Assembly (NCBI GenBank): GCA_018268135.1
Contig: JAFDXD010000140.1
Coordinates: forward strand, 1 to 64,000
Source: Bacteroidota bacterium
GTDB taxonomy: Bacteria > Bacteroidota > Bacteroidia > Chitinophagales > Chitinophagaceae
Direction: 5' to 3'
Length of the DNA stretch: 64,000 nt
How positions within the stretch are numbered: position 1 is the first letter of the stretch; each line of letters opens with the position of its first letter. The position numbers were made by a program, and so were the translations under genes. The notes below the pieces were generated by a model. It saw only the letters and a list, made by a program, of their open reading frames with translations. It was not told the origin of the DNA and did no database searches. Positions 17,383 through 20,491 of this stretch are shown one piece after another.

Positions 17383-17793
17383 ATGGCAAAAGCACAAGGC
17401 GGCAAACAAACAGGAAAAGCTGCCGCAAAAAAAAGAGTTGTAAAAGTTGAGAGTCATGGAGATGCTCATATTGTAGCAAGTTTCAACAATATTATCATCA
17501 GTTTAACCAACAAGCAAGGCCAGGTAATATCATGGTCAAGCGCAGGTAAAATGGGTTTTAAAGGAAGCAAAAAAAATACTCCGTACGCTGCACAGATGGC
17601 TGCTGCAGATGCTGCTAAAGTTGCATTGGATGCAGGTTTAAAAAGAGTGGATGTATTTGTAAAAGGACCCGGTAGTGGCCGTGAAGGCGCTATCCGCTCA
17701 CTTTCACAAAACGGAATTGAGATAGCAACTATAAAAGACGTTACTCCAATGCCCCACAACGGATGCCGTCCTCCTAAGAAAAGAAGAGTTTAA
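17383..17793 (+). CDS. rpsK: 30S ribosomal protein S11
   Basis: 136-residue platform protein of the 30S subunit. [46 protein letters not shown] and the closing [18 protein letters not shown] are the family signatures. An N-terminal basic extension of about 20 residues ([19 protein letters not shown]) is common in this phylum. The 119-base spacer to rpsD contains a weak hairpin TCACC/GGTGA (17802-17815) followed by T residues and then the rpsD pseudoknot. Confidence 0.97.
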
Positions 17794-17845
17794 GCTCAAA
17801 ATCACCTTTGGGTGAATTTTTGAATTTTCATATTATTTAATAACG

Positions 17846-17899
17846 GGTGCAGCATTTATTTTAAAGGTCTTTACAATGATGCACCGACACTAAAAGACC
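17846..17899 (+). ncRNA. Predicted H-type pseudoknot leader of rpsD (S4)
   Basis: Stem 1 pairs 17846-17851 with 17880-17885 (GGTGCA/TGCACC) and, past a G-A mismatch, 17853-17856 with 17875-17878 (CATT/AATG). The 18-base loop carries GGTCTTT (17866-17872), which pairs perfectly with AAAGACC (17893-17899) downstream of stem 1. The two helices interlock as a classic H-type pseudoknot, ending 13 bases before the rpsD ATG. S4 is a known autorepressor that binds pseudoknot-like mRNA in other bacteria, so feedback control is the natural hypothesis. Pairings were checked base by base, but no covariation could be tested. Confidence 0.6.
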
Positions 17900-17912
17900 A
17901 CTTTATACAATT

Positions 17913-18518
17913 ATGGCACGTTATACAGGCCCCAAAACAAAAATCTCCAGAATTTTCGGAGAACCTATTACCGGTAATGGAAAATGGCTGACTAAAAACA
18001 GCAACCCTCCCGGACAGCATGGCGCTCAACGCAAGCGTAAAACACTTGGTGAGTATGCACTTCAGTTAAAAGAAAAACAAAAAGCAAAATACACTTATGG
18101 TTTGCTGGAAAAACAATTCCGCAAAACATTTGATGAAGCTAGCCGTAAAAAAGGTGTAACAGGTGAAAACCTTATTAAACTTTTAGAAGCTCGCCTTGAT
18201 AATACCGTTTTTAGAATGGGTATTTCTATAAGCCGTCAGGGCGCCCGCCAATTGGTAAGCCACAAGCATATTACAGTAAATGGCGAAGTAATTAATATTC
18301 CTTCTTACAGTTGCAAACCAGGTGATGTAATTGGTTTGAAAAATAAAAGCGCTGCCAATGCAGCTATCACCGGTAACCTGCGTGGAAAAAATCCAAAATT
18401 CAACTGGGTAGAATGGAATGAGGCAGAAATGAAAGGTACTTTTATTACTTGGCCTGAAAGAGAAAGTGTTCCTGAAAATATTAAGGAACAACTTATAGTG
18501 GAATTGTACAGCAAATAA
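17913..18518 (+). CDS. rpsD: 30S ribosomal protein S4
   Basis: 201-residue primary 16S-binding protein. [25 protein letters not shown] opens the N-terminal region, which lacks zinc-binding cysteines; the S4 RNA-binding domain is [40 protein letters not shown] (about 94-133). Full length for the family. Its own mRNA leader has a predicted pseudoknot, which suggests autoregulation by this protein. It is followed by a 110-base spacer and rpoA, the conserved alpha-operon order. Confidence 0.97.
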
Positions 18519-18628: not shown

Positions 18629-19624
18629 ATGGCCATTTTTAATTTTGTTAAACCAGATAAAATTGTACTTCAAAAAGCAACTGAGTTTGAAGCTCAATTT
18701 GAATTTCGCCCATTAGAACCAGGATATGGTGTAACCATTGGGAACGCCCTACGCAGGGTATTGCTTAACTCTTTAGAAGGTTATGCCATTGTTGGAATCA
18801 ACATTGCTGGCGCCGACCATGAGTTTGCTACCATTAAAGGAGTTACTGAAGACGTAACTGAAATTATCCTTAACCTAAAACAAGTACGTTTTAAAGCAAA
18901 GGCAGACCACGAAGTAAATGCTGAAAAGGTAACCCTTTCTTTAAAAAATAAAACAGAATTTACTGCAGGCATGATAGGTGAAGCCTCTCCCGCTTTTGAA
19001 GTAATGAACCCTGATTTATTAATTTGCACTTTAGATACTTCTGCCAAACTTGATATAGAAATTTCTATCGGCCGTGGCCGTGGGTATGTACCTGCTGAAG
19101 AGCACAAAGAAAAAAGCTCTCATTTTGGTTACATCCCTGTAGATGCAATTTATACCCCAATTAAAAATGTAAAATATTTAATTGAAAATACAAGGGTTGA
19201 GCAACGTACAGATTTTGAAAAACTTATTATGGATGTAGTTACCGATGGTACCATTCATCCGGAAGAAGCAGTAAAACAGGCAAGCCGTATCCTCATTCAA
19301 CATTTAATGATCATCACTGATGAAAACATTACATTTGATACTAAAGAGGATAAAAAAGAGGACCTAGTAGATGAACAAACTCTTCAGCTTCGCAAAATGC
19401 TAAAAACTCCTTTAGAAGATTTAGACCTTTCAGTACGTGCTTTCAACTGCTTAAAAGCTGCTAAAATCAACTCATTAAGTGAGCTTGTTCAATACGAACA
19501 GGAAGACCTGATGAAGTTTAGAAACTTTGGCCAGAAATCTTTAAGCGAAATAGACCAGGTATTACACGAAAGAGGTTTAAGCTTTGGTATGGATTTGAGC
19601 AAATTGAAATTAGACGACGAATAA
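18629..19624 (+). CDS. rpoA: DNA-directed RNA polymerase subunit alpha
   Basis: 331 residues. The N-terminal domain that dimerises and holds beta and beta-prime includes FEFRPLEPGYGVTIGNALRRVLLNSLEGYAIVG (about 26-58) and VPAEEHKE. After a linker the C-terminal domain, LDLSVRAFNCLKAAKINSLSELVQYEQEDLMKFRNFGQKSLSEI (about 266-309), is the helix-hairpin-helix module that contacts upstream DNA and activators. Both domains are intact. It lies between rpsD and rplQ as in most bacteria. Confidence 0.98.
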   Translation: MAIFNFVKPDKIVLQKATEFEAQFEFRPLEPGYGVTIGNALRRVLLNSLEGYAIVGINIAGADHEFATIKGVTEDVTEIILNLKQVRFKAKADHEVNAEKVTLSLKNKTEFTAGMIGEASPAFEVMNPDLLICTLDTSAKLDIEISIGRGRGYVPAEEHKEKSSHFGYIPVDAIYTPIKNVKYLIENTRVEQRTDFEKLIMDVVTDGTIHPEEAVKQASRILIQHLMIITDENITFDTKEDKKEDLVDEQTLQLRKMLKTPLEDLDLSVRAFNCLKAAKINSLSELVQYEQEDLMKFRNFGQKSLSEIDQVLHERGLSFGMDLSKLKLDDE

Positions 19625-19720: not shown

Positions 19721-20491
19721 ATGCGTCACGGAAACAAAAACAAAAATTTAAGCAGAACAGCCTCTCACAGAAGAGCTTTATTGGCAAACCTCGGTAGCCA
19801 GTTGATTACACACAAAAGAATCACTACTACCTTAGCAAAAGCAAAAGCTTTGCGTACTTTCATTGAGCCACTTATTACTAAAACAAAAGCTACTGGCAGC
19901 AAAGAAGTAATCAGCCACAATCATAGAATTGTATTTAGCTACCTCAACGATAAACAAGCGGTGAAAGAATTATTTACCGTAGTAGCTCCTAAAGTAGCAA
20001 GTCGCCCGGGCGGATATACCAGAATTATTAAACTTGGTGCAAGGGTAGGTGATAATGCTGAAATAGCAATGATAGAATTAGTAGATTTCAATGAAATTTA
20101 TGGCAAAGGTATTAGCAAAGCTACTACTGCAGAACCTGCTAAGAAAACACGCCGTAGCGGTGGTGCTAAAGCAAAAGCTAAAGATACTGCTGCCACAGAA
20201 GTAGTAGCAGAAACAGCCGCACCTAAAAGTAAAAAAGCAGATGACCTTAAAATAGTTGAAGGTATAGGCCCCAAAATTGCCGAAGTATTGAATGCCGCCG
20301 GAATTGTAAGCTTTGCAGATTTGGCAAAATCTACTCCAGAAAAAATTAAAGAAATTTTAGAAGCTTCTGGTGGCCATTTTAATGCCGCTGACCCTGCTAC
20401 ATGGCCTGAGCAGGCTCAATTAGCTGCTGATGGAAAAATGGATGAATTGAAAGTGTTACAGGATAAATTAAACGGAGGAAGAGAAGCCTAA
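19721..20491 (+). CDS. rplQ: 50S ribosomal protein L17 with C-terminal helix-hairpin-helix extension
   Basis: The first 125 residues are a normal L17 ([29 protein letters not shown]-like start, [42 protein letters not shown]). The protein then continues for about 130 residues, twice the usual length: a charged Lys/Ala linker (about 130-175) and a compact domain with [20 protein letters not shown] (about 184-203), a helix-hairpin-helix, ending [19 protein letters not shown] and LQDKLNGG. I recall similar tails on other Bacteroidetes ribosomal proteins such as L21. It may bind RNA or DNA outside the core ribosome; function unknown. Last gene of the operon, with a strong terminator after it. Confidence 0.93.

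Follow-up and report, generated by a model that had tools for sequence, protein, structure and literature searches.

The window analysed here, a stretch of 64,000 nucleotides, contains the genes infA, rpsM, rpsK, rpsD, rpoA, and rplQ in this order, all of them assigned by NCBIfam models above cut-off. The spacer between rpsK and rpsD measures 119 nt and carries, at positions 17846-17899, a short element in which two helices cross. The parts of the element and its neighbors are:

17383-17793, plus strand: rpsK (S11), the upstream gene (NCBIfam TIGR03632/NF003698)
17845, plus strand: unpaired conserved G at the foot of stem 1 (G in 76/87 rows, column 28 of alignment A1)
17846-17856, plus strand: stem 1, 5' arm, GGTGCA-G-CATT (sequence reading and covariation)
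17857-17865, plus strand: loop 1, which holds the U-run 17859-17862 (little or no variation of the U-run across the family alignments)
17866-17872, plus strand: pseudoknot helix, 5' arm, GGTCTTT (sequence reading and comparative pairing)
17873-17874, plus strand: loop 2, AC (sequence reading)
17875-17885, plus strand: stem 1, 3' arm, AATG-A-TGCACC (sequence reading and covariation)
17886-17892, plus strand: loop 3, GACACTA, its first G conserved (G in 76/87 rows, column 78 of A1)
17893-17899, plus strand: pseudoknot helix, 3' arm, AAAGACC (sequence reading and comparative pairing)
17900-17912, plus strand: 13-nt spacer to the rpsD start codon (sequence reading; distances in relatives)
17913-18518, plus strand: rpsD (S4), presumed regulated gene and source of the presumed ligand (NCBIfam NF003717/TIGR01017)
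18629-19624, plus strand: rpoA, next downstream of rpsD (NCBIfam NF003516/TIGR02027)
19721-20491, plus strand: rplQ (L17), after rpoA (NCBIfam TIGR00059)

Direct reading of the sequence bore out the geometry given in the preliminary description: a 10-bp stem with one G.A mismatch at 17846-17885, a complementarity of GGTCTTT with AAAGACC, the crossing of the two helices as in an H-type pseudoknot, and an end 13 bases before the rpsD ATG. In stem 1, an outer segment (17846-17851, GGTGCA, with 17880-17885, TGCACC) and an inner one (17853-17856, CATT, with 17875-17878, AATG) flank the mismatch of G at 17852 opposite A at 17879. The second helix is a perfect 7-bp pairing of 17866-17872 with 17893-17899, and the 13 nt between it and the ATG at 17913 lie inside the expected footprint of the ribosome. 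Up to the A-run, loop 3 has 5-7 nt in the 87 group-A rows of the family alignment.

Sequence context of the element

By itself, the single window sequence was suggestive only. Knots of equal strength (a stem of 10 or more Watson-Crick pairs and no more than one mismatch, with 7 Watson-Crick pairs crossing it) appeared in 5/5000 dinucleotide shuffles of the 119-nt spacer. Both strands of the 64 kb together contain ten such knots, the present one and nine others; these nine are what an explanation by chance pairing in an AT-rich spacer can draw on. A single-strand fold of 17794-17960 was no more stable than shuffles (z -0.44, with a program that cannot form pseudoknots). The element is established because of comparative, family-wide evidence and not by this one sequence.

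Directly after the rpsK stop codon, a hairpin was observed at 17796-17823 that is terminator-like by pattern at 17802-17815, with the tail ATTTTTGAAT; the 301-base region contains two terminator-like sites against 0.4 expected. Hairpins of unrelated sequence were seen by eye at the same place after rpsK in several relatives (L007, L012, and L029). Given the hairpin at 17802-17815, rpsK and rpsD may not always lie on one transcript, and the sequence would leave room for transcription-level control between them. No U-run was found 3' of the knot. One sigma-70-like site is present in the region (17884-17911), which is chance level (0.8 expected), and the Bacteroidetes promoter box TAnnTTTG occurs in only 2 of 111 spacers.

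Two further observations concern the window. The rplQ product has 256 aa, with an extension of more than 100 residues beyond the L17 domain, and is matched by the "sunset domain variant" L17 model at a score below its cut-off. On the minus strand, 51798-51876 matches Flavo-1 RNA (RF01705) above the gathering score.

Conservation and covariation within the family

An S4 match was obtained in 145 of the 147 same-family genomes searched, and rpsD upstream regions were taken from 110 of these, mostly one per genus, and from a family genome added later (L113). In 108 of these 111 loci, the sequence before rpsD holds an alignable element with the same layout; 87 of the 108 form group A (window included) and 21 a divergent group B. 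The groups, and the three loci left out, were chosen by eye from the sequences. Since L055, L082, and L083 have no element, it is dispensable in some relatives; in L094 it is weak and rich in A and T.

A covariance model of group A, built on the nested stem only, matched 83/94 family genomes and, weakly, 7/204 other genomes of the order; model R1 gave a single match in the window's own genome, at 17842-17902. Among family genomes held out of model building, 34/37 were matched (counted from the listing). Of the 11 family genomes that the group-A model missed, eight are group-B genomes or share a genus with them, and three come from genus g15, where two were seen to lack the element (L055 and L185). 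In a set of 80 named loci, the two models together matched 51 of the 52 whose rpsD is at least 73% identical, from genera that include Chitinophaga, Niabella, Flavihumibacter, Sediminibacterium, Ginsengibacter, Flavipsychrobacter, and Taibaiella, and 0/28 of the others (Sphingobacterium, Cytophagales, Flavobacteriia, Bacteroidales, and unplaced records). Of the 52, ten duplicate sequences already in the sample (nine matched, one the element-less L082); the remaining 42 are new in sequence and all were matched (42/42). On this pattern of matches, the element is a feature of one family, identified by the names of these loci as Chitinophagaceae.

Three sets of matches from outside the family were set aside. 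For the weak matches in the order (7/204 genomes, E 9e-4 to 7e-3) and those of the second model in the class (4/288 genomes, E 3e-4 to 9e-3), neither rpsD nor rpsK was present in the stretches fetched, and those of the first model in the class (17/288 genomes, E 1e-3 to 1e-2) were taken as chance by their scores. A record titled Phycisphaerales (L231) has a Chitinophagaceae-like rpsD (74% identical) and is among the few loci without the element; it is probably a mislabeled or mixed MAG.

The preliminary description had named uncompensated variation of the pairing bases as what would speak against the element; both helices show compensated variation across the family. When all column pairs of the 87 aligned spacers were ranked by mutual information, with no structure supplied, three stem-1 pairs and one pseudoknot pair took the top four places. 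With the structure given, 90.7% of cells in the 87 rows were paired compared with 76.5% after shuffling, double-change cells numbered 222 compared with 79, and the covariation score was 0.379 compared with 0.136, each value being reached by 0/500 shuffles; the count of pairs changed on both sides (11/18) was nearly matched by shuffling (8.9). Sliding the partners by 1-3 columns lowered pairing to 33-58%. Under a tree-keeping null for group A, four stem-1 pairs obtained E values of 0, 0, 0, and 0.017, and the best pseudoknot pair one of 0.17, as some 5' arms, including that of the window, are out of place in the alignment. The pseudoknot register was therefore fixed from the U-run and the A-run alone. 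With this pairing-blind register, 81 of 86 distinct rows could be scored; the other five, in which the run pattern could not be located, were dropped. The first pair outside the runs was canonical in 81/81 rows (A-T 60, C-G 18, G-C 3), and so was the second (G-C 74, A-T 5, T-A 2). On a tree built without the pseudoknot arms, these two pairs underwent about 11 and about 6 double changes, all from pair to pair, with zero single-sided breaks, and the observed pairing value was reached by 0/5000 swaps and 0/1000 tree nulls. The third pair was canonical in 57/81 rows and the fourth in 34/81, so that the helix frays outward; its A/U core hardly varies, which places core pairing beyond the reach of covariation.

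In group B, 9 of the 11 predicted stem-1 pairs showed double changes, with an E value of 0 for one pair and 0.22 for another. The pairing-blind pseudoknot register gave 15, 17, and 12 canonical rows of 21 and failed for several rows, since the A-run that pairs is often not the first. A search for the longest complement, which reports presence only, found the expected arm in 19/21 rows; L092 had another pairing, and L093 had none in the stretch used. Judging by these substitution patterns, both crossing helices are under selection. Chance pairing is refuted by the compensated conservation across the family together with the matches in held-out genomes and in the named loci new in sequence, and we assign it a negligible probability.

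A subgroup of group A, 24 rows by pattern, carries AATGAA after the pseudoknot arm and, in 23/24 rows, TTCATT before stem 1, where TTCATT also stands in 17/63 other group-A rows; in the subgroup, a short, weak hairpin whose sequence varies often stands before TTCATT. The two motifs, which are absent from the window and too invariant to test, could form an outer helix that closes the knot.

Position at the rpsD start and the presumed role of S4

In all 30 model matches that were fetched, nine of which are sequences outside the model, rpsD begins 5-16 nt downstream. In group A, the distance from the second base after the A-run to the ATG has a median of 16 nt (interquartile range 13.5-17, range 7-19), whereas the rpsK stop lies 6-188 nt from stem 1; in group B, the pseudoknot arm ends 0-2 nt before the ATG in 10/21 rows. 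By these distances, the element keeps close to the start of rpsD and not to rpsK. The gene rpsK is upstream of rpsD in 113/113 loci (111 genomes), so the sample holds no locus in which the element has followed rpsD to a new place. On balance, the evidence from position speaks for control of translation start. Ribosomes of Bacteroidia are reported not to recognize Shine-Dalgarno sequences (PMC9976891), so a structure over the start region would be a natural brake, and a nearby knot a plausible form of initiation control. What is found in the lineage is a covarying structured RNA consistently upstream of a ribosomal protein gene, as is asked of an r-leader.

An element of mRNA processing, pausing, termination, or stability between rpsK and rpsD, such as a knot acting as a barrier to an exonuclease or a paused polymerase, would suit the intercistronic location and the hairpins of unrelated sequence upstream in the spacer, the window's being terminator-like (17802-17815). 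We regard it as quite improbable: group A keeps the element within a narrow range of distances from the start codon and a wide one from rpsK, the terminator-like hairpin is outside the conserved element, no U-run comes after the knot, and the group-B arms that nearly touch the ATG suit start-site control.

We consider it likely that the element is an S4-responsive translational operator for rpsD, and perhaps with it for rpoA and rplQ, and a structurally new S4 leader. The S4-leader reading in the preliminary description is partly supported, by the place of the element at the rpsD start and by its restriction to rpsD; the role of S4 itself we infer from this position and from precedent. In the proposed mechanism, free S4, in excess of 16S rRNA, would bind or stabilize the knot, and the folded pseudoknot helix, which ends 0 to ~20 nt before the ATG, would block or trap the 30S subunit. 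The S4-bound knot would keep 30S off the rpsD start, or trap it there as in E. coli, and translation of rpsD, perhaps also of the following rpoA and rplQ, would be lowered.

The position would fit any product of the operon as ligand, and the comparative data prove the structure, not the ligand. A translational leader could thus respond to S11, S13, L17, or RpoA, or could without any ligand fix a lower rate for rpsD relative to rpsK; such ligand-free tuning needs no S4 site, and none was recognizable when 16S words were compared. We find these possibilities unlikely. The element adjoins rpsD and not rpsM or rpsK, the conserved unpaired G's of stem 1 and the loop U-run suggest a specific partner, and S4 is the reported regulator both of the E. 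coli alpha operon and of Bacillus rpsD (PMC10931766).

In a comparison for rRNA mimicry, words of at least 8 nt shared by group-A rows with a 210-nt stretch of 16S from a relative (G004) were not above the shuffled control (14/90 rows, the 90 including three loci without the element; control mean 16.5, maximum 52). In group B, 7/21 rows shared such words (control mean 2.9, maximum 13), which is within the control range. The stem foot GGGTGC/GCACC resembles strands at the base of helix 18 of 16S rRNA; with shared words within the control, this resemblance is not claimed. The window's assembly yielded a single SSU rRNA (G000:C67:24903-26021, locus L266), which is short and organelle-like, is flanked by tRNAs and an LSU gene, and lies on a contig that looks like contaminating organelle DNA; a 16S of the bacterium itself was not found there.

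The loop-1 U-run and the junction-proximal A/U pairs of the pseudoknot helix are almost invariant, whereas stem 1 changes freely. Loop 1 contains at least UUU in 87/87 group-A and 20/21 group-B rows, and the A/U run of the helix comprises 3-6 pairs in the 82 rows scored, with 5/87 unscored and the lower bound set by the search pattern. A U-run in loop 1 beside an A/U second helix is the sequence arrangement expected of a U.A-U triplex. Loop 1 of an H-type knot follows the A-strand of the second helix, which is the geometry of the U.A-U triples of telomerase RNA and SAM-II. The invariance suggests a U.A-U triple helix formed by the U-rich loop 1 in the deep groove of the A/U pseudoknot helix; this would leave the knot marginal without protein and make it firm with protein. 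The weak correlation between the loop-1 U-run and the pseudoknot A-U run (Spearman 0.29) is not taken as evidence, since phylogeny could cause it. The unpaired G conserved at both feet of stem 1 (76/87 each) is a candidate contact at either place. More tentatively, and somewhat short of an even chance in our estimate, the element may represent an S4 operator of a new class, in which a U.A-U triplex holds the H-type pseudoknot and S4 closes it, as a ligand closes a pseudoknot riboswitch, over the start codon region of an mRNA whose ribosomes do not use Shine-Dalgarno pairing. It would then be one of several structurally unrelated S4 leaders that arose before rpsD within one phylum. The short, strongly conserved element makes the blocking of initiation by a knot directly testable.

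Relation to known S4 leaders

Comparative genomics led in 2020 to the proposal of four S4 leaders, including hairpins before rpsD in Bacteroidia and Flavobacteria that are reported to regulate rpsD-rpoA-rplQ, with S4 as the likely ligand by precedent only (Eckert and Weinberg; PMC7247131). The preliminary description knew of no Bacteroidetes S4 leader of this form; within the literature searched that statement stands, but it passed over these two hairpin leaders (RF03139 and RF03141; PMC7247131), neither of which matches the element. The S4-Flavobacteria model (RF03141) had no match in the window, in 15 family loci, or in the four family genomes listed among 119 class genomes; as a control, it matched 10/20 outgroup rpsD loci and one of 20 later sources. 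The S4-Bacteroidia model (RF03139) matched 0/20 relatives (13 of the family, own genome included) and nothing in the window, and did match the control Bacteroides ihuae. No match to S4-Clostridia (RF03140) was obtained in the window at the gathering threshold or in three genomes, its controls being silent too. A search of the window with Rfam gave no S4-leader match, and a loose threshold gave chance-like matches only. No description of the element was found among the listed matches from openly accessible literature, judged by title and start of abstract.

A different hairpin was observed before rpsD in Sphingobacterium, Solitalea, and family-f3 loci (L116, L119, L132, L245, L248, L249, L252, and L265, in the last 75 nt before rpsD), with the segments TTTAAGATAAGATTC, GCTATAGGC, and GATACTTCAAAC in this order. 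It shows changes on both sides of the inner stem and has no Rfam match; by its sequence, it is perhaps yet another S4 leader. Loci L124, L129, L131, and L134, from another class of the phylum, have GC-rich rpsK-rpsD spacers in which inverted repeats were seen by eye (CACGGCAGC .. GCTGTCGTG or like, and TTTGTC .. GACAAA).

The S4 operator of the E. coli alpha operon is the Rfam family Alpha_RBS (RF00140). There, S4 is a proven repressor and holds a complex pseudoknot at the start of rpsM, of which the ribosome binding site is a part (PMC10931766). The element shares with it a pseudoknot at a translation start in the same operon and would resemble it broadly in mode of action, but lies before rpsD instead of rpsM and has no Rfam match, and S4, proven in E. 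coli, is here the presumed ligand. In Bacillus, S4 represses its own synthesis from an rpsD that is apart from the alpha operon, and the leader reportedly forms no pseudoknot (PMC10931766); the S4 motif of Firmicutes carries a GUAA rRNA-like sequence (PMC7247131). Both the Bacillus leader and the element stand directly before rpsD, the element being a pseudoknot within the alpha operon. The pseudoknots of the SAM-II riboswitch and of telomerase RNA are likewise H-type, their second helix being A/U-rich and flanked by a U-rich loop 1; they differ from the element in ligand, sequence, and biology, and the triple helix present in them is for the element a prediction.

The comparison thus leaves a candidate for a new pseudoknotted S4 leader that has strong structural support and differs from the catalogued ones. 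It would fill a gap in a much-studied type of feedback, namely how Chitinophagaceae may keep S4, and with it RpoA and L17, in step with rRNA. The hairpins of Bacteroidia and Flavobacteria belong to the same phylum, precede the same genes rpsD-rpoA-rplQ, and are assigned to S4 by precedent, but they are hairpins of 33-34 model positions, whereas the element is an H-type pseudoknot of ~60 nt. If the S4 reading is true, the element would be, beside these two, a third unrelated RNA solution before rpsD in one phylum, and a good case for the repeated invention of ribosomal protein operators.
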